From positions 558,001 through 622,000 of the forward strand of contig NZ_FLLS01000002.1 of NCBI RefSeq assembly GCF_900078545.1: 64,000 nucleotides of DNA, read 5' to 3'. Positions 41,929 to 64,000 of the stretch are shown in pieces. This DNA comes from Olegusella massiliensis. Lineage in GTDB: Bacteria; Actinomycetota; Coriobacteriia; Coriobacteriales; Atopobiaceae. The translations under genes and the position numbers were made by a program. Each line of letters starts with the position of its first letter. The stretch's first letter is position 1. The notes beneath the pieces were generated by a model. The model was not told where the DNA came from and did not search any database. It saw only the letters and a list, made by a program, of their open reading frames with translations.

Positions 41929-42393
41929 TTAAAGAAACAACGGTCGAGCGAAACCCAATCGCTCGGCGTGGTTGAAGATGGCGTTGAGCTGGTTGTTGAT
42001 GATCCTCAGGTAAGTGGGCTTGAAACTGTCGCCGTCGGGCCTCGTGGAGCCCGTGAGGGAGTTCTGCCACCTGACGATGTCGACGGGCCGTATGTCGCAC
42101 ATGCGCATGTCGCCGAAGAACGGGATGAGCTTGCTCTGGATGATGTTCTCCTTGGTGAGCTAGGTGTGCTCGCGGACCCTCGGCCTCACCTCCGCCTCGT
42201 AGACCTTGCAGAAGTCGGCGAAGGTCATGTCCATGGCGTCGTCCTTGAGGGCCTTGAAGTTCTTCTCCCACAGAAGCGCCTCGAGCTCGGTCTGGAATCC
42301 CTTCTTGGTCTTGTGCCGCTTGGCCCCGCGCGCGTCGCGGTAGTAGAACTGCACGTAGAAGAGGCCCGTCTTCTTGTCCTTATAGGCCGGCAT
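41929..42393 (-). pseudogene. Tyrosine integrase, nonsense-mutated and missing the catalytic domain
   Basis: The Arm DNA-binding start is intact (MPAYKDKKTGLFYVQFYYRD), followed by the core-binding domain. TAG at 42160-42162 stands where homologues have Trp (REHT-stop-LTKENIIQS). The same frame continues through FFGDMRMCDIRPVDIVRWQN and LNAIFNHAERLGFARP to TAA at 41929. The catalytic R-H-R-Y domain is absent. Its start overlaps the excisionase gene. The element can no longer excise itself by this enzyme. Confidence 0.8.
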
Positions 42394-42595
42394 TGTTCAC
42401 CTCCGGGAAGTAGCGGGCCTCGAACAGGTCGCTGCGGATGCGTCCGCGGATCACCACGCGCCCGAGGGCCTCCTGCTCCTTGTTCATCTGCCGGATCACC
42501 TCGTAGACGCTGCCTTTCTTGATCTTCAGACGCTCCGCCACCTCGTCGGCGGTGAGCATGCTCGGCCTCGGCGTCCTTGCAACCGGCTGTTCCAT
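42380..42595 (-). CDS. Excisionase-type HTH protein
   Basis: 71 residues with a MerR/Xis-like winged helix (LTADEVAERLKIKKGSVYEV, then RIRSDLFEARYFPE). AGGAGGT lies six bases before the ATG. The gene overlaps the integrase start, the usual xis-int order. Excisionases bend att-site DNA and steer the integrase. It is transcribed from a near-consensus promoter at 42643-42671 that carries an operator in its spacer. Intact, although its integrase is broken. Confidence 0.8.
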   Translation of the reverse strand: MEQPVARTPRPSMLTADEVAERLKIKKGSVYEVIRQMNKEQEALGRVVIRGRIRSDLFEARYFPEVNNAGL

Positions 42596-42614
42596 CTTGG
42601 ACCTCCTGTCTATT

Positions 42615-42695
42615 CGTACGTATCTGTACGCTTATATTCCCGAGAATAATCGTACGCATATGTACTGTCAATAGAATTGCGTACAAACTCGTACG
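42615..42695. promoter_or_regulatory. Three CGTAC-N6-GTACG operators between xis and the repressor
   Basis: Sites lie at 42615-42630 (perfect), 42651-42666 (last base differs) and 42680-42695 (perfect), with start-to-start distances of 36 and 29 bp. The second lies inside the xis promoter spacer and the third inside the repressor promoter, so the XRE protein probably shuts both. Confidence 0.75.
42643..42671 (-). promoter_or_regulatory. Promoter for xis-int
   Basis: On the minus strand TTGACA (42671-42666), 17 bases and TATTCT (42648-42643): near-consensus sigma-70 form, with operator 2 filling the spacer. Confidence 0.7.
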
Positions 42696-42705
42696 CTGAT
42701 AGAAT
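42677..42705 (+). promoter_or_regulatory. Promoter for the XRE repressor
   Basis: TTGCGT (42677-42682), 17 bases and TAGAAT (42700-42705), with operator 3 inside, which implies autorepression. Confidence 0.65.
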
Positions 42706-42734
42706 GGTCGCCACGAAATAAAACAGGAGGGCAC

Positions 42735-43148
42735 ATGGCGACGGGCGACAACATTCGGCGATACCGCAAGGCGAAGGGCCTGACGCAGGCCCAGCTCGCC
42801 GATGCGGTTGGGCTTACCGAAGGCGCGATCAGGCACTACGAGAGCGGCATCCGCGCGGTGAAGCCCGAGTTGCTGGAGGAGATCGCGAAGGAGCTCGAGG
42901 TCTCCGTAGGCGCGCTCAAGGACTACGGAGTCGAGACGTCGCGCGACCTCGTGGCCCTGCTGCTGCAGCTGGAGGAAGGCTACGGTCTCGTGCCCAGCGA
43001 GGACGGCATGGGCCTGACGGTCGACCCCGGGGCGCCGCATGCCCCCAAGCTCGCGCAGTCGATCAAGACCTGGGCGAAAAAGCGCGCTGAGCTCGAGCGC
43101 GGAGAAGTCGGCGGGGCCGCTTACGCTGATTGGAAGGCCTCTTTCTGA
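42735..43148 (+). CDS. XRE-family repressor of the integrative element
   Basis: 137 residues. The N-terminal HTH (IRRYRKAKGLTQAQLADAVG, LTEGAIRHYESGIRAVKPEL) is a classic Cro/CI domain; the C-terminal ~60 residues are of unknown fold. AGGAGGG precedes the ATG. It is divergent from xis, with three palindromic operators between them, so it is the likely master repressor of excision and its own regulator. The last ~37 codons of this gene and its terminator are repeated 1260 bp downstream. Confidence 0.85.
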   Translation: MATGDNIRRYRKAKGLTQAQLADAVGLTEGAIRHYESGIRAVKPELLEEIAKELEVSVGALKDYGVETSRDLVALLLQLEEGYGLVPSEDGMGLTVDPGAPHAPKLAQSIKTWAKKRAELERGEVGGAAYADWKASF

Positions 43149-43920: not shown

Positions 43921-44290
43921 TCTGCGGCGATCCTTTCAGGCGATATAGAGAGCAATGGAAAGTGCGGAGCTGCAGGTGCCTGGCGGTTTGATTCTATCAG
44001 ACGAGTGCATTGAAGTGCATAAACCCGCTCGATCATAAAGACGCTCCTGACAGCAGCGAGCGCGCCGCCCATTACAGTCTGCGATAAGCCACCGATGAGC
44101 TTCTGTGGCGAGCATTCGGCGCATTGCCTACGATACGGGCAAGCCCCGAGGGGCCGCCGATCGGGCGCCTCCGGATGACCGTCTGTCCCTGCCCCGCAGA
44201 GGGCCGGGGGGTGTTGCCACCTGAGGAGCTCGCCGCTCCGAACGACTGATAGGAGACTGCTGGGCGCGGGCACCACGGCCAGGTAATGTG
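43921..44290. other. Non-coding, probably decayed DNA
   Basis: No intact gene. A minus-strand frame contains GLARIVGNAPNARHRSSSV, but no family is recognised. The region lies inside the repeat-bounded segment. Confidence 0.3.
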
Positions 44291-44515
44291 GGCGCCGCAT
44301 GTCGCAAAGCTCGCGCAGTCGATCAAGACCTGGGCGGAAAAGCGCGCTGAGCTCGAGCGCGGAGAAGTCGACGGGGCCGCTTACGCTGATTGGAAGGCCT
44401 CTTTCTGACATTTCCCCAGGTAAATTAATGCTTCCTTGCGAACAGCCTCCTGTTTTTTGGAGGCTGTTCCATTATTCCCGTATAAAATCAGCGCCCCGGA
44501 AGAACCGTTAGGGGA
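44291..44515 (+). repeat. 225-bp direct repeat, right copy
   Basis: A near-identical copy of the repressor 3' end plus terminator (44440-44469). It is not part of an intact gene; the upstream part of the repressor is absent. Confidence 0.9.
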
Positions 44516-44796
44516 ATAATTGCATGCCCGAATACGGCAAGGTATGCGGCGTCATTCGGCGGCATTCGGGGTTACCGAAACTGCGGAAACGTATCAAGAC
44601 CGTCCGTAGCTGACTACACGCCCACGCATGCCACGACCTTGGAGCTTATTGGTTTGTCGGCCATTCTCCAATTCGGCGATGAGTACAAAACTTCCACCTC
44701 GACCTCATCTCCGCCGTGATTATGAGGTCGATATCACGGTAGGAATTATCTATTTTAGCACCACGACTAGCCTCAGCCTGACAAACCTGATCGCGC
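44516..44796 (+). other. Gap with a weak 50-codon ORF
   Basis: An ORF at 44679-44831 ends in a hydrophobic stretch (LTNLIALIALALHQWQQ) and overlaps the 3' end of the protease gene on the opposite strand. It has no ribosome site, so I do not call it a gene. Confidence 0.25.
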
Positions 44797-47301
44797 TTAT
44801 CGCTCTCGCGCTGCACCAGTGGCAGCAATAGAAACGGCCGTTGCCGAAGTATTTTCTATCCGCTGAGTGATTTCCGAGTAGAGATCTGCCTCCACGCAAG
44901 GTGTCTCGATGCTCACAATCAACGAGTATCGCGCCTCAGAATCAATCTTCCCAAGATACCTGCGAGACCTCCACCATCCAATCACCGGGTATACGGCAAT
45001 AAACTCGATGTCGCTCAGCTCGATTGCGGATGCATATTTGTAGTCGGAATGAATCGAGCCTACGTTTCGGTTGTTGACGCCGAGAAACCAGCCGCCAGAG
45101 CCGCTAGACGCTTTTCCCTCATCCTCATCTCGAACGCTTACGTTGATACGCTTCTCGAACTCTTCCAGGCTCTCGCCCGGCTTGTTCACATCGAAACGAA
45201 GTCCGTGAGAAGAGTACCGATACCTGTCCTTCCACCCAATCTGCCCCGGCCCCGGTTCGATGAAATAAGAAAGGGTCACATGGAGCGTTGCGTCGACATC
45301 GGCAAGCGAAGCGAGCACATCTTTTGGCCAAGGCAGCGTATGAAGGTGCATCTCCCTCATCGTCTCACGCCCTTCCTTCACCTCATACGGATGTAGGGCC
45401 TCTTGAATAATGAGGTTGACACTGTTCTCCTTGCATTCGACTGCACGGCTCAAGTCCGGTATGCCGTAGCCGCAAGCCCTAAGCAGCCTCCTCCGCCCCT
45501 TTGTGGACGTATCCTCGGGCGACCCCTCGGGCGAGTACCTGTCTATCATTGCTTGTGACCAGCGGGCGGAATGCACAAGCAGTCCCCTGATTGTCTCGGG
45601 CCATAGGTCTGGATAGGCATTCTCCAGCTCGGCCGCAATATAGGCGGCCTCGGCAACTGCCGCACTCGTCGCGTTGATGGTGTCCAGCGGGCGTGACGCT
45701 ATGTCAGCGCCAGTGGTAAGCAGCGATAAATCCTGACAGTCTGAATAGTCGGTACCCATCCCGACTATGTTTCCACCGGGGCAGACGACCTCGGGCTTCA
45801 CCGGCGCAATCGAATGTCCCCATTGCAGAGACGTCGTGCTGAATGGGCATAGCTCTCCCGGCACCGCGACGGGCTGATAGCCCGTGGCCAGTATGTCGTC
45901 TTCTTCGACCAGGGCGTTTTCACTGTACGCCCCGACCGTCAGAGCATTCCACGATTGTCCCGGGCTGCGGACGGAGCGAATCTCGTTCGCCTCGGGATAG
46001 ACCGTTCCGTTCAGCATGGACAACGGGATGTTCCCGCCGGAAACAAGCACTAGCTCATGCTCGCTCGAGGGGTCGTCTGCATGAGAGATGGCCTCGTCTA
46101 GCGCAGCAGACCAGGATGTGGGCAAGCCATCGGTGACTTCGCACTCATCAGCAGTGACTCCGGAGCAAAAGACCCTATTCCTCTTCGGCTTTGCCACGTA
46201 AGTCCTGTCCATCGCCTGCTTGACGATTTCACCATACAGGTCAGGACTGTTCTGCCTGCTCAGGTCAAGAATCTTCATGGACTCAAGGGAGTGAGTCACC
46301 TCTACTGGACCCGCAGACAGCAAGCATTCTTTCAAATTTCCATATAAAGCCAGCCCTGCGAGCTTGGTGCCATGGCCGTCTCGATCTCCTGTCCCGAGCG
46401 CATCGTCATAAGCCAGGACGGCATCTTCGTCAACGGCCGGGGACAAGAGCGGATGTCCGCCGTTGATGCCCGTGTCGAGTATGCAGACGCTTGCTTCGCC
46501 GGGCTCAAAAGACGTTCTGCTCAATAGGTCGTCAATCCACTCGCGCTGCTCGGGCCCCTCAAGATTGGCGAAGAACGATGATGCAAGGGGCGCCTCCTTT
46601 ATCTCGGCAAGACCATCGTAGCTGTCCAGGAGGCCCGCAAGATCGGACATATTTGCATACGCCAGCGTAACCATGCGCTCGGGGAACAAGATGAAGGCAC
46701 TCTTGTGCTCGATATGGAGCTTATCAAGCAAAGCGGAATACGCTTCGAACGAGCTGCCGTCCTCATCTTTGCCCGTTCGCAGCCAAACCTCGAGCCACTG
46801 CTTCAAATCCGCTGGGCGCTTATCATCACTACCCGTCCAAAGAGAATCGACGATAGCCAGACGGATGTCCTCGATGCTGGACACCAGCTTCTCGTGGCGA
46901 GGCTTGCCCTTCTTGGTGACCTGGTGCGGATCGCCATATGCCTCCACTCTATCAAGAAAAAAGCGCTCTTCCCCAGATGGGATAAACACTGTCGCCCGTG
47001 TGACGTCACCCACTTGGCGAACATTGAGAAGGCGCACGCCCCGCCGCACATCCTCCAAGCTCCCCGTAGTCAAGTCTCCGTTTTGAGGACCAATAAACTC
47101 AAGGTAGATTCCATGCCTGTCAACAACAGCGAACGCTCTTCTATCGTCGTTCGCAGCAAAGGCACCCTCCAACTCCTTGCAGAGCTTCGCTGCATGCGAT
47201 GAGGGGTCACGATCGATTGACGGCTTGCCCCTGCCGCCCTGAGGGGCAGAATAAGGCTCTTGGTGGCACGTGTTCGTGAGAACGAGGTTCGGTCTCTTCA
47301 T
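44797..47301 (-). CDS. S8 (subtilisin-type) serine protease of an IetAS-like defence pair
   Basis: 834 residues. The catalytic triad is visible: Asp276 in CILDTG, His310 in DGHGTK and Ser546 in NATSAA (the GTSxA-type site). About 270 N-terminal residues precede the catalytic domain, and a long C-terminal beta-rich part follows. There is no signal peptide, so it acts in the cytoplasm. It is encoded five bases after an AAA ATPase in the same direction. An AAA ATPase plus subtilase pair is the composition of the IetAS anti-phage system; the assignment rests on domain content and order. The ATPase probably senses or unfolds, and the protease cleaves cell or phage targets (inferred). Confidence 0.8.
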   Translation of the reverse strand: MKRPNLVLTNTCHQEPYSAPQGGRGKPSIDRDPSSHAAKLCKELEGAFAANDDRRAFAVVDRHGIYLEFIGPQNGDLTTGSLEDVRRGVRLLNVRQVGDVTRATVFIPSGEERFFLDRVEAYGDPHQVTKKGKPRHEKLVSSIEDIRLAIVDSLWTGSDDKRPADLKQWLEVWLRTGKDEDGSSFEAYSALLDKLHIEHKSAFILFPERMVTLAYANMSDLAGLLDSYDGLAEIKEAPLASSFFANLEGPEQREWIDDLLSRTSFEPGEASVCILDTGINGGHPLLSPAVDEDAVLAYDDALGTGDRDGHGTKLAGLALYGNLKECLLSAGPVEVTHSLESMKILDLSRQNSPDLYGEIVKQAMDRTYVAKPKRNRVFCSGVTADECEVTDGLPTSWSAALDEAISHADDPSSEHELVLVSGGNIPLSMLNGTVYPEANEIRSVRSPGQSWNALTVGAYSENALVEEDDILATGYQPVAVPGELCPFSTTSLQWGHSIAPVKPEVVCPGGNIVGMGTDYSDCQDLSLLTTGADIASRPLDTINATSAAVAEAAYIAAELENAYPDLWPETIRGLLVHSARWSQAMIDRYSPEGSPEDTSTKGRRRLLRACGYGIPDLSRAVECKENSVNLIIQEALHPYEVKEGRETMREMHLHTLPWPKDVLASLADVDATLHVTLSYFIEPGPGQIGWKDRYRYSSHGLRFDVNKPGESLEEFEKRINVSVRDEDEGKASSGSGGWFLGVNNRNVGSIHSDYKYASAIELSDIEFIAVYPVIGWWRSRRYLGKIDSEARYSLIVSIETPCVEADLYSEITQRIENTSATAVSIAATGAARER

Positions 47302-47306
47302 TCCGC

Positions 47307-48272
47307 TTAGCCGACCTTATCCTCGCAGTCGTATATGGACAACCTATCCTCGCAGAGCCGTTGGAAAAGCTCGTCGCACAGCGGGGAGTCAGTCAATAAG
47401 GATTCTTTTACCGCATCTTCACAAAGGCGCGTGATGTCTGCCTGGCAAAGCTGCGAGAGCTTGGCGGCCGTCTCGTCGGTAAGGGAAAGCGCCGGGTCAT
47501 AGGCACCCGTACGGTTCGCCACGATGCGCTTAACCTCTCTGGTTGTCGGAAGTTCGTAATGCATAACGTCGTCGAAGCGTCGAAAGAGCGCCTGGTCGAG
47601 CATTTTCCTGTTGTTCGTAGCGGCGATGATTATGCTCTCAGAGGTATCCACCTCGATGAACTGCAGAAACGAGTTCAATATGCGGCGCATCTCGCCAACC
47701 TCGTTGTCTCTGCTGCGATCGGCCCCGATGGCGTCGAACTCGTCGAACAGGTAGACGGCGCGATTGCTGGCAATGGCTTCGAAAATCTGGCGAAGCCGGG
47801 AGCTAGTCTCGCCAAGGTACTTCGTGATGAGCTTATCAGTCTGTACGATGAACAGGGGCATGCCGAGATCGGCGGCGATCACCGAAGCCGTCATAGTCTT
47901 GCCCGTGCCCGGGTCCCCCTCGAGCAGGAGCTTGCGACGGCAGCTTAGGCCGAACGAAGCGAGCCTCTTCCTTTGGCGATACTCGTCTAGCATGCGGTCG
48001 ATCTTCTCGGCGATTTCTGGCGAGACAACCAAATCGTCCAGTCGAACCTCCGGGAATGAGACAAGGAACAGATTGTCCTTATTCGCAAGACTAATGACAT
48101 TGCCTTTTGCACGAGTGGATGCATCGACCATGGCAGTGATTTCCCTACCCAAAGTGGTGTGGCCAACGCGTGTTTCTGATGCGGCTATGCGCAATGCCGC
48201 AGTCTTGAAACGTTCGTTATCTTGGTCGTAATGTGCTTTAATAAGGGCTTTTATCTGGTCGCCGGTTGCCAT
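47307..48272 (-). CDS. AAA+ ATPase of an IetAS-like defence pair
   Basis: 321 residues. After ~100 N-terminal residues comes a single AAA+ module: Walker A GDPGTGKT (119-126), Walker B VYLFDEFDAIG, sensor 1 IIAATNN, and arginine finger region FRRFDD. The short C-terminal helical lid is present. GGAGG lies upstream of the ATG at 48272. It is first in the two-gene operon with the S8 protease. In IetAS this component is IetA. Adjacent integrase remnants and repeats make this a defence island. Confidence 0.85.
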   Translation of the reverse strand: MATGDQIKALIKAHYDQDNERFKTAALRIAASETRVGHTTLGREITAMVDASTRAKGNVISLANKDNLFLVSFPEVRLDDLVVSPEIAEKIDRMLDEYRQRKRLASFGLSCRRKLLLEGDPGTGKTMTASVIAADLGMPLFIVQTDKLITKYLGETSSRLRQIFEAIASNRAVYLFDEFDAIGADRSRDNEVGEMRRILNSFLQFIEVDTSESIIIAATNNRKMLDQALFRRFDDVMHYELPTTREVKRIVANRTGAYDPALSLTDETAAKLSQLCQADITRLCEDAVKESLLTDSPLCDELFQRLCEDRLSIYDCEDKVG

Positions 48273-53954: not shown

Positions 53955-54476
53955 ATGAAAGACATCATCACATCTCAGAGCGAGGGGAAGGACGAGCGCA
54001 TGTCGTCGGTCCTCGCCCCAATCTACCGGGCCGGCTTCTACATCCTGGCCGGCGGGGTGCTGTTCGACGTCTCCTCTCGCTTCAACTACCTAGCCAGGAC
54101 GGGCGGAGGCTCCCTCGGGGAGTCGGTCGAGGTCGCAGCCCTGGTCGCCGCACTCGCCCTCGTCGCGCTGGCCAAGGAGAGAAGCGGTGCCGTCAGCGAC
54201 TCTCTCCGCGTTCTGGAGGCCAAGACCTTCGGCGGGACGGGCCTCGTCTGGAAGGGCGCGGGCGTTTCCCTGCTGATAGGGGTCGCGGCGGCACTCGGAA
54301 GGCTGTCCAGCGAGGTCGGTCTCGGCGGCTGGGCCTCCGTGATGTGGCTCAATGACGTCGCCATCTTCGTCATCGTGTCCGCGCTGTCGGCGGCAGCGGT
54401 GCTGGGATACCTCTACTGCTGCTGGCGCAGCTACCGGTCGAGGGAGGACCGGCTTGCCGGGGAGGACGACGCCTAG
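53955..54476 (+). CDS. Four-helix membrane protein paired with the XRE regulator
   Basis: 173 residues: helices around 25-45, 60-75, 100-115 and 130-155. The YRAGFYILAGGVLFDVSSRF start resembles the DUF6773-like partner proteins found with short XRE regulators. The function is unknown; it may be the membrane half of a sensor. It is 14 bases behind the regulator, so co-transcribed. Confidence 0.75.
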   Translation: MKDIITSQSEGKDERMSSVLAPIYRAGFYILAGGVLFDVSSRFNYLARTGGGSLGESVEVAALVAALALVALAKERSGAVSDSLRVLEAKTFGGTGLVWKGAGVSLLIGVAAALGRLSSEVGLGGWASVMWLNDVAIFVIVSALSAAAVLGYLYCCWRSYRSREDRLAGEDDA

Positions 54477-55064
54477 GCCGGCCGAGCCGGGCACGCGGCC
54501 GGCTCCCGGGCTCCCAGAAGGCCGCCCGGGCCCTGGAGGCGTGGAAGCGCATGCACGCCGGCTCTCCGCCGGGGAGATCTCCGAGGAGGACTACGGGGGC
54601 CTGGAAGGCCCGTTTCAGGGGCTGAGGGCGCACAGATAAAGCTGTCGGAGGCGCGCGGGCACCTCTTCTTCTTTCCGCCGAAATCGTCACTTTCCGGCAA
54701 CTACTGCGATTCCAAAGCGTCCCATAAACGTTCGGAGTAGGGTTCTGGGACGCGTGGAGAGAGTGACTCCAGGGTCTTCGGATGCCGTCAGAACCCGCCG
54801 GAAACGCGTTCGAACCCGGTTTTCGGGAGGTTTGTCACTCTTAGCTCCTACCTGCACATACGCGGAATCGGAGCGCCGAGAGGCGGGGTGACTACACGGT
54901 GACTACACGCAGGGTCCCAAGATGGCGCCGTGACCGAAAAACGCGATGGAATCATTCCGTTGGTATTGGCACGTTTTCGGGACAAGTCCCGTATCGCGCC
55001 AACTAATCTCATCCTGTGTGGGCATTGAACAGGTGTGAAGAGTATTTTCGCAGTTCAAATGGGG
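54477..55064. other. GC-rich gap with a SHOCT-like remnant
   Basis: ALEAWKRMHAG and, in another frame, GEISEEDYGGLEG (54500-54640) look like the tail of a SHOCT-type domain from a lost gene. From ~54820 the sequence GGTTTGTCACTCTT and GGTGACTACACGGTGACTA occurs again near 62282-62360. No intact gene. Confidence 0.4.
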
Positions 55065-55500
55065 TAAGAGAAAAGCCGAAATCGTCTGATTTCGGGGCCG
55101 GTCGACAAATTCCACTCATCGAAAGTTCCGGTGGCTTTGTCCTATTCCCACCACTAGATGCTAACCACCGCCACTAGACGGGAGGCTTGCAACTAGATGG
55201 AACAAAAGCCCAGGTCACTCCCATTCGATCGTCGATATCCAAACATCCTGAACTCAGCACGCACTCTGACCTGTGCATGAATTTACTCCCGGCAGCTCGA
55301 AATCGTTCCACAACAAAACTCAACTGGAACTCATCACTGAGTTCCACTACAGCACGCGAAAGCGCTGGGATGGTAGCAGTTTGCTGGGGAGCAAATCCCT
55401 GACCTGCGGGAATGTGGGAAGGTGTGCGCAACTGAGCTCACATCGGCATCGAGACTTCCTCATACATCTTGGCTTTGCCCGGGCGCAAACGGCCTGAACG
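55065..55500. repeat. Structured intergenic element, copy A
   Basis: It lies directly downstream (minus-strand sense) of the CPBP protease gene. Hairpin CCGAAATC-GTCT-GATTTCGG is at 55076-55095 and, read on the minus strand, is followed by CTTTTCTCTT like a terminator. Hairpin GGAACTCA-TCAC-TGAGTTCC is at 55326-55345. The core TGAACTCAGCACGCACTC begins at 55249. It repeats ACTAGATG motifs. Confidence 0.8.
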
Positions 55501-55533
55501 CGCAAAACAGCGTCTGGGTCAATGCGGCCCGGT

Positions 55534-56499
55534 TCACGTAAGTCGGTTCGCGGCAGGCCCGTCCTGACTTTCTGCCCCCGTCGTTTTCAGCCAGCAGGCC
55601 ACGCCCAGGATGAACAGCGGGATGCCTGCGACGTACCCGTAGGTGGATGGCCCTGCCAGGGCCTGCCCGCCCGCGCAGAACATGAGGCCGATGTTGGCCG
55701 TGGCGTTGAACGCCCCATGCGCCAGGGCGCATGGCCAGACGCTCCCCGCGCGCGTTCTCAGCAAGCTCAGGAAGGAGCCCATTGCAGTGCAGGTCGCGAC
55801 CATCACGAGGACCCCCGTCCACGGGAAGCCGGCGTAGCCCATCCCGAAGTGATGGCCCATGGCGATAATCGGGGCATGCCATATCCCCCATGCGAGGCCG
55901 GACGCGAGGACGGCGGCTCGCGGGGGCATGAGCTCGCAAAGCGAGGGGAAGAGCAGGCCGCGCCAGCCGGCCTCCTCCCCGAAGGCCGGCAGCATGTTGA
56001 CGAACGGAGCGACCGTGAGGGAGAAAATGACTGAAACGGCGATGATGGACGTCTCTGTGCCGACAGCCGTTCCACCAGTATCTTGCGCGGCAGCAGACAT
56101 GGACTGCAAGAACCTTTGCAGCATCGGGTCGAACAGATCGGGAAACGTCGCAAAGAATACGAGGAGGCCCAGCGAGGCAACCGCCGCCGGAACGAGCCAC
56201 GCGGCCAGGTACGCGCGCAGGTTCCCCTTCACGCGTGGACGAAGGCGCAGGTCGGTCCCGCCCCCGGAACCGCAGCACCGATTGGCTGCGAGTGCCCCGA
56301 CGAGGGGGAAGAACATGCTGACGGTGATGGGCAGGACCACCGCAGGCGCGCCGAGCTCGCCCACGGAGAAGGAGTCGAGCGCCAATCCCGCTGCGATGAC
56401 GAGACCCCAGGTGAGCGCGAAGGTGACGAGCAGGAACACGGCGACCCGCCTCTTCGCGACCGCCCTGCGGAAGGAGGCTTCTCGCTTGGCGCTACCCAT
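55534..56499 (-). CDS. CPBP-family (type II CAAX-like) membrane protease
   Basis: 321 residues from the ATG at 56499, which overlaps the stop of the XRE gene; GGAGG lies upstream. There are eight or so hydrophobic helices and the CPBP motifs EEAGWRG (EExxxR), an FxxxH-type WGIWHAPII and ALAHGAFNAT. CPBP proteases are intramembrane metalloproteases often linked to bacteriocin maturation or immunity. It forms an operon with the XRE regulator. A truncated copy lies at 62.99-63.36 kb. Confidence 0.88.
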   Translation of the reverse strand: MGSAKREASFRRAVAKRRVAVFLLVTFALTWGLVIAAGLALDSFSVGELGAPAVVLPITVSMFFPLVGALAANRCCGSGGGTDLRLRPRVKGNLRAYLAAWLVPAAVASLGLLVFFATFPDLFDPMLQRFLQSMSAAAQDTGGTAVGTETSIIAVSVIFSLTVAPFVNMLPAFGEEAGWRGLLFPSLCELMPPRAAVLASGLAWGIWHAPIIAMGHHFGMGYAGFPWTGVLVMVATCTAMGSFLSLLRTRAGSVWPCALAHGAFNATANIGLMFCAGGQALAGPSTYGYVAGIPLFILGVACWLKTTGAESQDGPAANRLT

Positions 56500-57604
56500 G
56501 TGCGACCTCCTCCAGGCTCGCCACGATACGCTTGAAGCGCGAGTCGCCGGATAGAGAAGCGAACGCCGGATTCGCGGCAACCCCCTCCAGCAGGCTCGCC
56601 CTCACCCTCTTCTCGTCGCGCGGCATGTCGGCCCCGACGGCGCTCGCGCGCTCGAACCAATCGCCCAGCTTGTCGAAGAAGGCGTCCCCGTGGAACGCCC
56701 CGTCGAACCTCATGGCTCGACACGAGCGCACGTAGTCCTCGAGGCAGCCGATGGCCCCGTCTGCGTCGCCTGCGACGCTGAAGGCGGCTGCGAAGGAGAG
56801 GTGCACCGACGCCACGTTTTCGAACACCTTTTCGAAGCCGAACGAGTCGATGATATGGAGCGCGCGCACGTGGGCGCTTTCGAGCCTGTCCGGTTCCGAG
56901 GCGTGAAGCATCGCTAGGTCGGCTAGCCGGCTCAGGCTCAAAACGAGCGCCTGGTAGAGCATCGACTGCAGTGCCGTGTCGGCCTCTTCCGTCATCCCGA
57001 GCGCGGAGTAGGCACTGGCAAGGATGATGTCTGCGCCCATGTCGGGTGAGACGGAGTCCTTAAGAAGCTCCGCCGCCTCCTTCGCCCCTCCCTTCATCAG
57101 CAGCAAGATCGCCTCGACCGACTCGGCCTGCCTTACGCAGCCCAAGCCCTTGGCGCCTCGGCGCACTCGGGCGCACAGGCCGACGGCCTCCTCGATGAGG
57201 GGGCCGCGCGCGTCAGGGCCGGCGAGGTCGACGTGGTTCGCGTAGAGCGTCGCTATCTGCAAGAGCAGTGGGTAGCAGGAGAAGTAGTCGCGCGCGAGGG
57301 CCCGGCACATGTCGTGCGCCCGGTCAAACGGACCTTCGGCGAAGGCCGCGCGCAGGCGGGCGCATTCCATGCGGATTGCCCGGTCGCTCATCTGCGGCCT
57401 GTATCCCACGAGCTCGTCTATGCTGATGCCGAAGTACGTTGCGATGCGCGGCAGCAGCGCTATGTCGGGATAGCTCTGCCCGGTCTCCCACTTGGAGACC
57501 GACGCCTTCGTGACCTTGAGGAACGCTGCCAGCTCCTCCTGCGTCAGCCCGCGCTCCCTGCGGTTGCGCGCGATGTTGCTCCCGATGGGGATTTCGTTAT
57601 CCAT
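56492..57604 (-). CDS. XRE regulator with TPR-like C-terminal domain
   Basis: 370 residues: N-terminal HTH (NRRERGLTQEELAAFLKVTK, SYPDIALLPRIATYFGISID) and a ~290-residue all-helical part resembling tetratricopeptide repeats of the RRNPP-type or PlcR-like peptide-responsive regulators. No enzymatic motif. The gene overlaps the CPBP protease start, so it probably controls it and may respond to a small peptide (inferred). Confidence 0.85.
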   Translation of the reverse strand: MDNEIPIGSNIARNRRERGLTQEELAAFLKVTKASVSKWETGQSYPDIALLPRIATYFGISIDELVGYRPQMSDRAIRMECARLRAAFAEGPFDRAHDMCRALARDYFSCYPLLLQIATLYANHVDLAGPDARGPLIEEAVGLCARVRRGAKGLGCVRQAESVEAILLLMKGGAKEAAELLKDSVSPDMGADIILASAYSALGMTEEADTALQSMLYQALVLSLSRLADLAMLHASEPDRLESAHVRALHIIDSFGFEKVFENVASVHLSFAAAFSVAGDADGAIGCLEDYVRSCRAMRFDGAFHGDAFFDKLGDWFERASAVGADMPRDEKRVRASLLEGVAANPAFASLSGDSRFKRIVASLEEVAHG

Positions 57605-58302
57605 GGGCGCCCTTTCTCAAGTCTATCAATCTCTTAAAAGGTTAAGGGGTCGGCTTCGGATGGGCAATCGAGCCTTCGCCTATTTTGATTGATTTAATCA
57701 ACCGGAGGTTGATTCGTCCTGGACTGAGTCGCACGATTCCTCGGGGATCCACGCGATGCCGCCGACTGGCGGCGCGCGCGTCCGATCGAAACCCGTTCCC
57801 CGCGGGTTCCTTCTGCCTTTCCAACTGCCACTGCGCCTGATTCTCCGGCAGCCATGCAGACGCGGGCGCTTCTTGGAGTGAAACGACTGTTTTAGAGAAG
57901 CGGACCTTACAGTGGCTTAGCGTGGCCTAGGGTCCCGCGCCGCGTTGCAGGGTCCGGGCAAAGGCCAACCGAGAGGTGAGACGCATGGCAGACGAGATTT
58001 TCAAACTGGAGCGGGCCCCTGTGCGGTCGTCTGCAAGGGGCCCTGGCCCCAATAGGAAACCAACCGAATCTAACGCTGCTGTGCGCCGGTATTGCGGCGC
58101 CACTTCGACATTGCTCGCAAGGGAGTTTTGCGGCGAGCAAGCGAAGGGGCGACTCGGCAACAACAACAGCTAAACAAACCAAGCCGCACGTTCCTCTAAA
58201 GGACTACGTTCCTCTTGATGCTATCGGCCCTGCTTCGGTACGCTTGCATCCGAGCCAGTTCCACTGCAGAGCGGGAATACGAGAATCTCGAGGCGTAAAA
58301 GG
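57605..58302. other. Non-coding region before a strong terminator
   Basis: No convincing gene. A 62-codon frame at 57985-58173 has a GAGGTGAG site but a random-looking composition. A promoter-like AT stretch precedes the XRE start. A GTGGCTTAG-type string at 57911-57960 recurs near 61613. Possibly a small untranslated RNA ends at the terminator that follows. Confidence 0.35.
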
Positions 58303-58336
58303 ACGCGCCCTGGAGCGATCCAGGGCGCGTTTTCGT
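58303..58336. terminator. Strong bidirectional terminator
   Basis: ACGCGCCCTGG, AGCGAT loop and CCAGGGCGCGT, followed by TTTTC. The reverse strand also gives CCTTTTA. It stands alone in a gene-free region, which implies an unannotated transcript upstream or downstream. Confidence 0.8.
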
Positions 58337-58652
58337 TCATCCAGTTCGTCAAGTCACGACAACGCGTCATGCGTCTCCCGTCGCGAGCTACGGGCAAAAA
58401 AATAGGGCAGGACCGCTTTCGCAACCCCGCCCCGCAAAACCCTAAGGTTTTTAGCTGGATACATTATGGACCGCTCAGATCCATCTGTCAAACACCCAGT
58501 TCAAGAAGGCCAGGGCGGAACGGAAATAGTCCAATCGGGCATACCAGCCCGAGTGTACCGGCAAGTAATTACGCCAATCGTTTATCGAGCTATCATTTAT
58601 GCAGATAAACCTTGACTCGTTCGATAACTCTATAGTTCAACTTACTGTCAAG
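58337..58652. other. Gap before the hydrolase
   Basis: No gene is seen. GC falls toward the hydrolase, marking the border of an AT-rich insertion. Confidence 0.35.
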
Positions 58653-59429
58653 TCAAACGCAGTTTTCCAAAAACGGATTAACCAAATCCATCCACTCTAA
58701 AGGCAGGTAAGCAGACAGATATCCGTGGTTGTACCCTTTAGCTTCATGGAGGATGCAATCAGGATGCATTTTTTGAAACAGCCTGGCCGATTCCTTGACG
58801 CAGCCCATTTCCCTTTCACCATAGATATATAAAACCTGCGCTTTGCTTTCTGTGATAGCGTCTTTGAGCCTGTACTCTCCCATATATGTTCGATACATCG
58901 TCACTAGTGTTTTGATAGGAAGCTTTGGCATATCTTCCATATAGTAGTTTTCTATTTCTGCGGGATAAGCCATGTTGGGATACATTTTCTTCATTAGGCT
59001 TAACTGAATCCTGCTAGCCGATCTGCTAAACATAAGCTTCCCGAATAGCTTTACAGTGATTGCACTGATTCGTGCCAGTTTGGGCTGAGGAATGCAGATG
59101 CTCCCATCGATTATTGCTTTTTGGGCTATACCGCTATCCAGCGATAATAACTCGATTGCAATTTGACCGCCCAGGGAAACGCCGCCTACAGCAAACAGTT
59201 TCCCGTCACAATTGCTTTTTACATAGCCCATGATCTGCTGTGCGGAATCCTCGGTTGAAATATAATCTTTTTGATATTCTTCTCCATGGCCATCAAGCGT
59301 TGGCAAGATTACATGGTATGCATCCGAGAGCATACGGGCTTGCCGGAGGTAGTTCCACCAGGAATTACCCCCACCGTGTATCAACAGTATATGGGGGAGA
59401 TTTTTATCGCCGAATTCATGAAATATCAT
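58653..59429 (-). CDS. Alpha/beta-hydrolase of low GC, probably acquired
   Basis: 258 residues. Typical alpha/beta-hydrolase order: oxyanion-region HGGGNSWW, nucleophile in VGGVSLGGQ (Ser of GxSxG), a cap region of ~80 residues, and a catalytic His near GYNHGYLSAY. The aspartate is probably in the YIYGERE strand or nearby. Base composition is much more AT-rich than its neighbours and the codon use looks like Firmicutes, so lateral transfer is likely. Substrate unknown. It has no obvious operon partner. Confidence 0.82.
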   Translation of the reverse strand: MIFHEFGDKNLPHILLIHGGGNSWWNYLRQARMLSDAYHVILPTLDGHGEEYQKDYISTEDSAQQIMGYVKSNCDGKLFAVGGVSLGGQIAIELLSLDSGIAQKAIIDGSICIPQPKLARISAITVKLFGKLMFSRSASRIQLSLMKKMYPNMAYPAEIENYYMEDMPKLPIKTLVTMYRTYMGEYRLKDAITESKAQVLYIYGEREMGCVKESARLFQKMHPDCILHEAKGYNHGYLSAYLPLEWMDLVNPFLENCV

Positions 59430-59509
59430 ATTTCAGCACCCTCGCAAATTTGAATTTATCGAACAAACAGAATGGTAATAGATAGCGGTAGATGGAACGC
59501 TCTGTAAAA

Positions 59510-59765
59510 GTCTAGTTCAGAAGCTCTTTCATTCCCGCTTAACCGCCAGTATTCGAGATTGAATGAACTCAACGTACATGCTGGACTGTGTGTATGTTTA
59601 TTCTCGGCAGCGTGAAACCATCTCAAAGCTAGAGCTCAGCTGGAACTCGGCACTGAATTCCAGTTTGGCATGCAACAGTGGAGAATGGACCCAGATCGTT
59701 GAAAAACAAGTGGTTTGAGCTGCAAAGGCGTGCATGCTTTTCATGTAGCTGAGTTCAGGCTGAGT
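59510..59765. repeat. Structured intergenic element, copy B (5'-truncated)
   Basis: It lies at the 3' end of the ABC-F gene. It carries the TGAACTCAACGTACATGC core (59564) and the hairpin GGAACTC...GAATTCC (59642-59661) with one mismatch. The left hairpin found in copies A, C and D is missing. About 60-70 percent similar to D by eye. Confidence 0.65.
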
Positions 59766-59799
59766 CAATATTACAAGAACAGCTGCAATGTAAGGGTGT

Positions 59800-61287
59800 C
59801 TATCCCACTACGAGCTCATAGCCACCCCCCAAAGGCCTTGTCCGCCAGACCACGTTTGTGGCCGCCTTCACCATGGCTGCGTCGTGGGAAACCAAGAGAA
59901 GCGCGCCGGGATAGACGGCCAGCACGCGCTCCAGAGCCTCAATGGATCCTATGTCGAGGTGGTTAGTGGACTCGTCCATGATGACGAGCTGAGGGCGTTC
60001 GACAATCCCGAGGGCCAGCATGAGCTTGCGCATCTCCCCCGGACTAACGGCATCTCCCTCGAGCATGCGGTTCGGATCGGAGTTAAGCTGCGCCACAACG
60101 GAGAGGACACGACCGCGCTGGCTAGCCGAAAGATCGTGCAATACGCTCAAGGCAGCCCGCTCCAGGGCCCGATTGGGCTCCTGGGGGATGTAGAGAAATC
60201 TCGTCGTTTCGGCAAGGCCCTCCACGATTCGCCTGACAAGGGTCGTCTTGCCGGAACCGTTGTCTCCAACGAGCCCGATATGATCGGTGTTTCCGATGTG
60301 CAGAGCGGGAACGACCAGGGAGGCGTCACCAAGGGGAATGCTGCAGGACCCCATCCTGAAAAGGAGCTTGCGTCTGCTGGGCTCGGCATCGAGCCACACG
60401 TCCGCCTCGTAGCGCTTCTCGACCCGCATCGCCACAAGCCTCGCCTCCGCGTCCTCCAGCCTTCCGACCATACGTGACGAGAGCCTGCCCGCCTGCCCGT
60501 CCTTACCGGTCACCACCGCAACACGCACCCTGCGACGCGCGTCCGCATCGTGCTTGTCTATGCCCCTGAGGCTCCTCTTGCCAGCGGCACGCGACGCCTC
60601 CTCACGACGACGCCTAACTTCCCGCTCGATGCGGGCCTTCTCCTTGCGGGCCTCGTCGCGCGCGTGGACGGCGCCCGAGCGCTCCAGGACCGCCTGCGAG
60701 GATGCCCGCGAGTATCCGCCTGGCCTCATGACGACGGCACCCCTCGAGACGAACAGACACTGCGCGCAGAGGGCGTCGAGCAGCTCCCGGTCGTGCGAGA
60801 CGAGGAGGCCAATCCCATCGAAGCGCGACAGCGCATCGGATATGGCGCGGCGGGTCGACGCATCGACGTGGTTGGTGGGCTCGTCCATGGCAAGGACGTC
60901 CGGAGCAGCCCACAGGGCGCAGGCCACCTGCAGTCGCTTCTGCTGCCCGCCCGAGAGCGTGGCATAGCGCCAGGGCCAGTCGTCCTCGATGGCGAGCTCG
61001 CGACGGAGCCTCACGGCTAGGCCGTCATGGGCAAGTGCGAAATCGACCACGTTGTCCGGCGGCTCCTTCGCATCTTGGGTGCAGTAGGCGGAGAAGAGGG
61101 ATGGCGAGACCGTGCCAGCGTCGGGCCGCAAAAGCCCACAAGCCATCAGCGCCAACGTGGTTTTGCCCCCGCCGTTGTCACCGACGATGCCGGTCCACCC
61201 ACGGGGAAACGTAGCGGTCACGGCGCGTAGGGCGGGCTCTGCCGTCGACGGATAGGTGTATTCGATGTTGGAGAGGTTGAGCTGCAT
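59800..61287 (-). CDS. ABC-F-type dual ATPase (possible ribosome protection)
   Basis: 495 residues from the ATG at 61287 (GGAGGC upstream). Two nucleotide-binding domains: Walker A GDNGGGKT and GDNGSGKT, signatures LSGGQQKRLQ and SPGEMRK, Walker B VLAMDEPTNHVD and VIMDESTNHLD. A basic linker (about 230-270, EEASRAAGKRSLRGIDKHDA) separates them. There are no transmembrane helices, so it is an ABC-F translation factor or antibiotic-resistance protein (Lsa/Vga style), not a transporter. Which drug, if any, cannot be told. Copy B of the structured repeat lies directly at its 3' end. Confidence 0.88.
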   Translation of the reverse strand: MQLNLSNIEYTYPSTAEPALRAVTATFPRGWTGIVGDNGGGKTTLALMACGLLRPDAGTVSPSLFSAYCTQDAKEPPDNVVDFALAHDGLAVRLRRELAIEDDWPWRYATLSGGQQKRLQVACALWAAPDVLAMDEPTNHVDASTRRAISDALSRFDGIGLLVSHDRELLDALCAQCLFVSRGAVVMRPGGYSRASSQAVLERSGAVHARDEARKEKARIEREVRRRREEASRAAGKRSLRGIDKHDADARRRVRVAVVTGKDGQAGRLSSRMVGRLEDAEARLVAMRVEKRYEADVWLDAEPSRRKLLFRMGSCSIPLGDASLVVPALHIGNTDHIGLVGDNGSGKTTLVRRIVEGLAETTRFLYIPQEPNRALERAALSVLHDLSASQRGRVLSVVAQLNSDPNRMLEGDAVSPGEMRKLMLALGIVERPQLVIMDESTNHLDIGSIEALERVLAVYPGALLLVSHDAAMVKAATNVVWRTRPLGGGYELVVG

Positions 61288-61628
61288 ATTGCCTCCGATC
61301 CTGCGGAAGGCCATGGGGGGCAGCTCTGCGCTTTGCCAGTTTGAGTATGTGGCTTTAGAACGATGCTCGAACATGCGATGCTGCACCCGCAGGCATGGCC
61401 ACCAGCGATGTCGCTTGGCTTTCGGGTGGATATGGCCATCGCTAGTTCTTCATGCACCAGGACCTTTCTCGTGCCGACGCTTGCCAAAGGCACCGGCGGA
61501 TTGCTTGGAATCATTATAGTCACTCGGGCGACAGCGAACAATCGGGCAGATTGGCCCAATCCGGTCAAGTTGACAACAGAGTTTCGCCATTTGGGCCTTA
61601 GGTTGGCTTACCGTGGCTTAGTGCCGCG
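61288..61628. other. Upstream region of the ABC-F gene
   Basis: No gene. Several plus-strand frames (61363-61560) are open but unrelated to any family. A leader with attenuation control would be typical for ABC-F resistance genes, but I see no clear terminator/antiterminator. Confidence 0.3.
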
Positions 61629-62270
61629 TACTGCGGTATCGCAGGCGAGGACAAGACCATCTACCACGCCTGGTACGAGGGGTCCGATACGGGCAACTGC
61701 CTCTTCGACCACATGTGGGGAATCCATGGCGGGCACAGCAAGACGTATGCGAGCTTCAAGGTCTACCGGGGCCTCGCCGAGGGCGGATACGGCACGCTCG
61801 ACAAGTCGTCCGGCGATGTCAAGGTGACCAAGGGCAACTCCCAGTACTCGCTGGCTGGCGCCATGTACGGCGTATACAAGGACGGCTCTCTCGTAACCAA
61901 GCTCGAGACGGTCGCAAGCGGGCACGGAACCACCGCAGACAAGCTCCCGAACGGTACGTACACCGTAAAGGAAATCTCCGCACCAGCGGGCTACGAGCTT
62001 TCTGACGAGGCGTTCACCATCACCGTCAAGGGCGCACTCATTTACGACACCTACACCATTGAAGAGCAGCGATGCGATTCCAACGCAGACAGGGACCTAA
62101 TCCCAACCTTCGACGTCACTGTCTACAAGGACTCTATAAAGATCGAACTCGGAACGCTCGTGAACTCCGAAGGGCCCAAGATCGGCACTACCGCAACCGG
62201 TGCGGATGACGATGATCACGAGGCTGTCGCCGACGAGGATGTAATCGCACGATTCTCGACCCTCAATTGA
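61629..62270 (+). pseudogene. Internal fragment of a giant VaFE-repeat adhesin
   Basis: The frame contains YHAWYEGSDTGNCLFDHMWG, then a SpaA-type domain (VTKGNSQYSLAGAMYGVYKD, EISAPAGYELSDEAF) and the start of a VaFE ester-bond domain (GTTATGADDDDHEAVADEDV), then a premature stop. There is no signal peptide, ribosome site or anchor. It is cut at both ends and followed by repeat copy C, so it is a remnant of a much larger surface protein. Confidence 0.65.
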
Positions 62271-62517
62271 GTTTTGGGAAGGTTTGTCACTCTTCGCTCT
62301 GAACGGGCGCAACGCGAATTTCCCCCTTCCCAAAAACCGGGTGACTACACGATGACTACATGGAAAGCGGTTGCGATACGAGGCGGCTAAAAAGCGCTAT
62401 GGAAGCACTCCAACGATGTTTGATACACATTCGCAACGAGCAGATTCTTTCTCCTCTAATAGCAACGCTTACCGCGACATGAGCGGAACGAAGAATATAA
62501 ATGCATGTCAACACCTA
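62271..62517. other. Non-coding lead-in to copy C
   Basis: GGTTTGTCACTCTT and GGGTGACTACACGATGACTA repeat the sequence at 54820-54920. No gene. Confidence 0.4.
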
Positions 62518-62945
62518 TAAGAGAAGCTCTGAAATCGTTTGATTTCAGAGCTTCTGAGTTATTTCCACTCATCGAAAGTTCCGGTTGCTTTGTCCTATTC
62601 CTACCACTGGATGCTAACCACCGCCACTAGACGGGAGGTTTGCAGCTAGATGGAACAAAAGCCCAGGTCACTCCCATTCGATCGTCGATATCCAAACATC
62701 CTGAACTCAGCACGCACTCTGACCTGTGCATGAATTTACTCACGGCAGCTCGAAAGCGTTCCAAAAACGGAACTCGACCGGAACTCCTCACTGAGTTCCA
62801 CTACAGCACGCGCAAGCGCTGGGATGGTCACAGATTGCCGGGAAGTAAATCCCTGTCCTGCGGGAATGTGAGAAGGTGCGCGCAACTGAGTCCACATCGG
62901 CATCGAGGCTTCCTTATACGTCTCTGCTTTGCCCGGGAGTAAACG
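62518..62945. repeat. Structured intergenic element, copy C
   Basis: Near copy of A (offset 7454 bp). Hairpin AAGCTCTGAAATC-GTTT-GATTTCAGAGCTT is at 62524-62553, longer than in A and with different but paired bases. A second hairpin GGAACTC...GAGTTCC is at 62780-62799. The core TGAACTCAGCACGCACTC starts at 62702. Confidence 0.8.
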
Positions 62946-62987
62946 ACCTGAACGGGCAAAACGGCGTCTTGCTCAATGCAGTCCGGT

Positions 62988-63360
62988 TCACGTAAGTCGA
63001 CCCGCGGCAGGCCCGTCCTGGCTTTCCACCCCCGTCGTTTTCAGCCAGCAGGCCACGCCCAGGATGAACAGCGGGATGCCTGCGACGTACCCGTAGGTGG
63101 ATGGCCCTGCCAGGGCCTGCCCGCCCGCGCAGAACATGAGGCCGATGTTGGCCGTGGCGTTGAACGCCCCATGCGCCAGGGCACATGGCCAGACGCTCCC
63201 CGCACGCGTTCTCAGCAAGCTCAGGAATGAGCCCATTGCAGTGCAGGTCGCGACCATCACGAGGACCCCCGTCCACGGGAAGCCGGCGTAGCCCATCCCG
63301 AAGTGATGGCCCATGGCGATGATCGGGGCATGCCATATCCCCCATGCGAGGCCGGACGCG
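62988..63360 (-). pseudogene. Truncated copy of the CPBP protease
   Basis: The last ~120 codons of the CPBP protease (GMGYAGFPWTGVLVMVATCT to the stop) at high identity to 55534-55906. The copy breaks off at 63360, exactly where structured element D begins. Catalytic EExxxR is missing. Confidence 0.85.
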
Positions 63361-63790
63361 ATTTAGCATCTCGGACAAACCAGTCGCATCCTGTGTAAGA
63401 AATGGAGATGACTAGGGAGTAAATGAGCAGGTCAATACGCAAAATGAAAGCCTCTGAAATCGATGATTTCAGAGGCTTCGCGGAAAATTTACTCACCAAA
63501 CTGACCGGCAGTTTGCACCTTACCTGCTACTAGATGAGACCAGATGCCACTAGATGGGACAGATGATAAACTCCCAGTTCAGAGGCCTATCTATTCCCAC
63601 TCGGTAGAAGAAAAACACAACACTATGAACTCAACGCGTACTCTAAACTGCGTTTATATTTACTCTCGGCAGCGTGAAATCGTCCCAAAATCGAGCTCAC
63701 TTGGAACTCAGTGCTGAGTTCCACTTCGGCACGCGATAGCGAGAGGATGGTTGCAGGTTGTTAGGGAGTAAATACTTTGTCCGTAGAAAC
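63361..63790. repeat. Structured intergenic element, copy D
   Basis: Starts at the break of the CPBP copy. Hairpin AAGCCTCTGAAATC-GAT-GATTTCAGAGGCTT lies at 63448-63478 (14 bp). Hairpin GGAACTCA-GTGC-TGAGTTCC lies at 63703-63722. The core TGAACTCAACGCGTACTC starts at 63626. ACTAGATG motifs lie at 63528-63560. The sequence has diverged from A/C, but the stems are kept. Confidence 0.75.
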
Positions 63791-64000
63791 ACTGTCTACC
63801 CGCATGCGATTGAGTTCGCAATCGTGGAGATGAAAGATCGCCATAATCAATTTGTACTGCCCATCGGGCGTAGGGCGCGGGTCGGAATCGTCTAGCGATG
63901 AGTTGCCGACACATCTCTGCATTCCGATGCCCTACAGAGTAGAGCTATCCGTTGGCATAGGCGGTCGTTTCCATCTCCCCACTCGACAACCAATATACGG
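63791..64000. other. Window end, nothing recognised
   Basis: No gene is seen. The sequence does not resume the interrupted CPBP gene. Confidence 0.3.

Follow-up and report, generated by a model that had tools for sequence, protein, structure and literature searches.

What are four related intergenic stretches, all placed within a few kilobases of one another, and do they belong to the world of structured RNA or to that of mobile DNA? The question is raised by a 64,000-nucleotide stretch of the Olegusella massiliensis genome (contig NZ_FLLS01000002.1, positions 558,001 to 622,000), called here the window, whose own numbering is used unless stated otherwise. An earlier sequence-only reading, made without database searches, had noticed copy A at 55.1–55.4 kb, B at 59.5–59.8 kb, C at 62.5–62.9 kb and D at 63.4–63.8 kb, each with two hairpins. 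We argue from sequence comparison that the four copies are, with a probability of about 0.93, attachment (att) junctions of stacked and decayed integrative elements whose insertion target is the 3′ end of guaA. The elements are counted as new members of a known guaA-targeting kind, and their junctions not as a new RNA family.

Junctions centred on the end of guaA

That the copies are truly related, as first proposed, lies far beyond chance: a model of their right halves, based on primary sequence, scores 99–107 bits (E 9e-30 to 5e-32) at positions 55217, 59531, 62670 and 63593. This model was built from 8 source sequences that include copies A–D, and its matches in other genomes agree with those of a second, independent profile described below. 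The plus-strand sequence TGAACTCA is present in all four copies. At the centre of each copy stands an 18–19 bp block whose reverse complement corresponds to the last codons of guaA (..ATIEWE-stop), and this core reads TATTCCCACTCAATCGTCG or a worn version of it. The sequence GAGTGGGA is found exactly in the core of D (63592–63610, minus strand) and in guaA itself; the minus-strand cores of A (55216–55234, GAATGGGA) and C (62669–62687) each differ from it by one change, and that of B (59530–59548, minus strand, CATTCCCGCTTAACCGCCA) is degenerate. The guaA gene of the same genome lies 17.2 kb to the right of the window (G000:C2:639212-640708, minus strand), with its 3′ end facing copies A–D and a stop region that matches the core, differing from the query motif at 1 position. 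Between D and guaA, which stands at 81210 when the window numbering is extended, there are two further junctions, E (69353) and F (74106). Cores of the guaA type are thus found at A, C, D, E, F and guaA, as expected of the boundaries of elements that target the 3′ end of this gene.

The two halves that meet at the core have different origins. The left halves of A, C and D adjoin guaA itself in other Coriobacteriales, beside a gene for an XRE regulator and, where seen, a tyrosine integrase gene, while the right halves are the distal ends of islands. Positions 53970–55232 of the window share 84.7% identity over 1264 bp with DNA abutting guaA in genome G046 (L036:300-1515), positions 63362–63602 share 78% with DNA abutting guaA in G053 (L016:7258-7499), and both matches terminate within the core; in G053, the left half and the core block continue directly into guaA. 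For the right halves, the matches begin at or near the core and are to far island ends in G053, G028, G018 and others. A profile of the proximal end, built solely from ends that stand beside guaA-type cores in other genomes, matches A (E 2.7e-82), C (1.9e-51) and D (3e-35), each time stopping at the core edge or within a few bases of it. An element end directly abuts guaA in G046, G053, G001, G003, G018, G014, G020 and G021, and in the window genome. Because similarity switches partner inside the core, A–D are best read as att junctions, this being the pattern expected of stacked site-specific insertions.

Two types of island end can be told apart. Copy A is a hybrid, in which a type-1 guaA-proximal left half (54865–55215, minus strand; match 55234–54865 to profile positions 1–369), with GTAGTC and GTCACTC iterons and CTAGATG repeats, is joined to a type-2 distal right half (55235–55440, plus strand) with exact GAACTC iterons at 55250, 55327 and, inverted, 55339. 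Copy C duplicates A on both sides, with a type-1 left half at 62330–62668 (minus strand; profile match 62687–62330) and a type-2 right half at 62688–62895 (plus strand), the latter recognized by the right-half model as well as by the duplication. Copy D carries a type-2 proximal left half (63362–63591, minus strand), which runs from GGGAGTAAAT through its hairpin to ATTTACTC and holds CTAGATG repeats, and a type-2 distal right half (63611–63820, plus strand) with exact GAACTC iterons at 63627 and 63704 and inverted ones at 63716 and 63812. Copy B consists of a worn core and a type-2 distal right half (59549–59757, plus strand), identified by the right-half model and its iterons. To the left of A, profile searches for a type-1 distal arm gave weak matches only, so that the array has no fixed boundary on that side. 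Separately, a terminator-like stretch at 58396–58496 shares 88% identity over 74 bp with DNA just downstream of guaA in G042 (L054) and is also found in L026; it may be the end of another island type.

Could the copies have arisen by simpler means? Simple duplication of a segment, starting from one ancestral intergenic region and involving no site-specific recombination, did contribute: A and C share 88–96% identity along more than 500 bp that take in the 3′ part of a neighbouring cargo gene, and as the products of one duplication they are not independent copies. As a full account it is barely credible: B and D are merely 65–78% alike, the left halves of A/C and of D come from different island types, each of which is met next to guaA in other families within the order, and the switch of similarity inside the core, which duplication by itself does not produce, was observed in other genomes. 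A small non-autonomous element, resembling a miniature inverted-repeat transposable element and inserted four times, would explain dispersed copies with internal hairpins and related copies in other genera. Hardly any weight can be given to it, as no full copies other than A–D were found in the window genome and all four lie inside one 8.7-kb stretch downstream of guaA, where whole units occur only as junctions. Its halves are moreover found separately, the unit is centred on guaA coding sequence, and A and C count as a single duplication. The intuition of mobile DNA in the first reading was therefore right in spirit, while both identities that it had put forward, a structured RNA or a small non-autonomous mobile element, fail, as the halves can be separated and are joined at a core derived from guaA.

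Two hairpins of different nature

The first hairpin is carried by the left halves of A (55076–55095, minus strand), C (62522–62555, minus strand) and D (63448–63478, minus strand). It had been described as differing in sequence yet always pairing; this holds for A, C and D and fails for B, where the hairpin is absent. The covariation is genuine: across 15 homologous sites, double changes occur in 8 of the 10 pairs and 92.7% of cells are paired, a result as high as which was reached by none of 500 shuffles. In most of 20 ends this hairpin is situated about 111–150 nt (typically about 115 nt) past the guaA-type stop, its sequence being very different from one end to another and its pairing kept. 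On the guaA strand it is usually followed by a T-rich tail: most ends with the stem have 4–7 T among the 8 nt that come next, and the strongest has 7 of 8; the tail is weaker (3 T) in C, F and G001. The stem of A is terminator-like on the guaA-sense strand and has the tail CTTTTCTCTT, so that the U-run noticed earlier on the minus strand is borne out; D also has a U-rich tail, and the feature is clearest where the same end type abuts guaA. Judged from these sequence features, hairpin 1 is probably an intrinsic terminator with which the island provides guaA.

The second hairpin (55325–55346 in A) is formed by the inverted iteron pair TGGAACTCA..TGAGTTCCA. Its occurrence in all four copies, with a mismatch in B, agrees with the initial description, but it does not covary beyond shuffles (score 0.076 vs 0.075 over 18 sequences) and is better described as inverted DNA iterons. 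Its arms are in fact two of about five iterons per far end, namely an inverted GAACTC pair. In ends of this kind, GAACTC is placed at about +36, +103, +114, +126 (inverted) and +222 (inverted), together with TTTACTC, while other far ends carry GTAGTC at +36, +93, +104, +116 (inverted), +129 and +212 (inverted), together with GTCACTC. By exact counts, no arm contains both alphabets. The spacing is nearly the same in the two, at 11, 12 and about 96 bp, and one spacer differs by about 10 bp, or one helical turn. Direct copies of the iteron switch in concert with the inverted ones, and two arms lack one 11-bp repeat step; both observations are easier to reconcile with protein-binding sites on DNA than with pairing in RNA. 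Since related arms are tied by descent and hence not independent, the pattern is support short of proof.

How does this bear on the proposal of a new structured RNA family, a 3′ untranslated region (UTR) or a stand-alone non-coding RNA holding both hairpins in one conserved molecule? The strong covariation of hairpin 1 and the U tail of several copies speak for it, as does the location of copies past the stops of minus-strand genes, which is confirmed for A (after a CPBP protease gene) and B (after an ABC-F ATPase gene). It is nonetheless very unlikely. A terminator suffices to explain hairpin 1, hairpin 2 shows no covariation, and the halves that carry the two hairpins are separable and joined at the guaA core. 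The iteron of hairpin 2 also recurs outside the hairpin (about +36, +103 and +222), switching in concert across types, and Rfam gave no match at gathering thresholds and, at E up to 10, two chance-level matches outside the copies. The GGATGGT stretch was also considered as a T-box or riboswitch, an idea dropped because no plus-strand gene follows A–C and Rfam is silent.

The iterons of the att junctions are putatively arm-type sites of the integrase (Int) or sites for accessory proteins. More tentatively, the two alphabets might constitute a specificity code matched by the recombination proteins of each island, which would let islands share a core and stack without cross-excision. Such a code would turn hybrid junctions such as A, with its type-1 left and type-2 right halves, into dead ends that freeze the array, and paired iteron types with fixed spacing offer a testable model of how stacked islands avoid cross-talk. 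The XRE regulator as reader of the iteron type is not supported, its recognition helix (TESAIRNYE) being the same in type-1 and type-2 islands.

Linkage to guaA, integrases and decay

Matches to the right-half model occur in 25 of 397 genomes of the order Coriobacteriales. On contigs that carry guaA, 22 of 32 matches lie within 100 kb downstream of the gene and in the expected orientation, where 1.3 would be expected at random. Beside guaA, G053 holds XRE and NikA-like genes and an intact integrase of 375 aa, with Phage_integrase, SAM-like and arm-DNA-binding domains. Related integrases stand 1–5 kb from guaA in G084, G295, G251, G209, G020, G144, G253 and G077, and the tyrosine integrase at the guaA-proximal end is intact in G053, G084, G295, G251 and others. 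Between integrase and core, guaA islands carry the XRE gene, with a conserved C-terminus; to the left of A (about 54500–54630) it survives as a frameshifted remnant.

A coherent course of events can be proposed from these data. An Int whose gene stands with that of an XRE regulator in the guaA-proximal end would join the island attP to the last guaA codons, and the core would restore the coding end of the gene after insertion. From the proximal end of the island, guaA would receive a new 3′ UTR and, in hairpin 1, an intrinsic terminator. Islands arriving later would use this core again and so move the earlier ones further from guaA, each internal junction then consisting of the proximal end of one island, a guaA-like core and the distal end of the next. 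The regularly spaced iterons of the distal ends, two of which make up hairpin 2, would bind recombination proteins on DNA.

Several observations weigh against this account. Of the 32 matches on guaA contigs, 10 are not downstream of the gene, some of them strong (G077, G324, G028), from which it follows that secondary-site insertion or rearrangement occurs. In copy B, neither a left half nor hairpin 1 is recognisable by profile search and stem inspection, and the missing left half is unfavourable. No empty site was recovered in a near relative, and the gene adjoining guaA in G007, which looks like an oleate hydratase and was considered as the ancestral neighbour, has no homologue in the window genome. 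Finally, only three fragments of the G053-type integrase were found in the window genome (contig positions 599956–600375, left of A, and 626863–627099 and 637904–638326, right of the window); the array therefore looks fossil or decayed, and activity cannot be claimed for it.

Around the junctions, the cargo can be partly described. The stretches A–B, B–C and C–D have cores on both sides and zero integrase matches, which is the make-up of cis-mobilizable elements (CIMEs). The A–B stretch contains the gene of the CPBP (Rce1-like) protease (55534–56514, minus strand), whose 3′ part is the one duplicated beside C (62988–63370), and the B–C stretch that of the ABC-F family ATPase (59800–61386, minus strand), a 78% nucleotide-identical gene of which stands beside a related distal end in G037. 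To the right of the window, within L014:8430-15561, an Msr-like ABC-F gene lies between junctions E and F, and the F–guaA island encodes a MobV-type (Mob_Pre) relaxase, an AAA_25 protein and a ribosomal protection protein of the Tet(M)/Tet(W) family. In blastn searches of plasmid and phage collections, the copies found zero matches; an exact-pattern scan of genome contigs returned two records only, from a Paraeggerthella and from an Atopobiaceae metagenome-assembled genome.

Some further features deserve mention. The stretch 41956–43148 holds an N-terminal fragment of the same integrase family with one internal stop, the one at contig positions 599956–600375, beside an intact XRE gene of the guaA-island type (42735–43148), whose 3′ end is duplicated at 44290–44517; no adjoining guaA-like core was recognised at this locus. 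In G002, G004, G009 and G041 (L039, L035, L038 and L055), contigs run out no more than about 90 bp from the guaA 3′ end, as would happen if short-read assembly were broken by repeats at this place. A fragment of an LPXTG pilin-like protein with a SpaA domain lies at 61713–62270, immediately left of junction C. Further left, the neighbouring minus-strand genes of a subtilase (Peptidase_S8, 834 aa) and an AAA ATPase (321 aa) at 44797–48272 possibly form a two-gene system, and a perfect 243-bp tandem duplication occupies 32171–32656.

Relation to known guaA elements

What had seemed a puzzling RNA family can thus be read as the trace of islands that entered at guaA time and again in Coriobacteriales, and exact boundaries can now be given for guaA islands that carry resistance and other cargo. 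It is also a warning that covarying hairpins beside att sites can be terminators borne by mobile elements. Hairpin 1 resembles Rho-independent terminators in its stable stem, small loop and T-rich tail on the guaA strand, and differs from them in being carried by a mobile element, nearly fixed about 115 nt past the stop of the target gene in most ends.

The first impression that no described family resembles these copies is contradicted by the elements known to target guaA, even if no paper describing guaA islands in Coriobacteriales was found in the open-access literature. GIsul2 integrates at the guaA 3′ end, at the site GAGTGGGA with a 19-bp attB, and its excision and integration were shown experimentally (PMC9376610). 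The core of junctions of the A–D type holds this published site, and GIsul2 itself has three att sites in one island (PMC9376610). GIsul2 is however proteobacterial, with another regulator and plasmid-like genes, and the likeness described here is that of the target site.

Closer in content is ATE-1 of Trueperella pyogenes, an integrative mobilizable element (IME) at the guaA 3′ end with a tyrosine integrase, a MobV relaxase and tet(W) (PMC5704250). The F–guaA island recalls it, by description and not by sequence comparison, through its MobV-type relaxase, Tet(M)/Tet(W)-family protein and AAA_25 protein, whereas the islands of the window genome are several, stacked and decayed, with a truncated integrase. 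Their arrangement is that of CIMEs and of the tandem accretion of IMEs, in which decayed elements retain their att sites and are piled up as further elements insert at one shared target (PMC5704250). The array described here is likewise decayed with its att sites kept, but it belongs to Coriobacteriales, uses guaA as its target, and counts six junctions (A–F) before the gene is reached.

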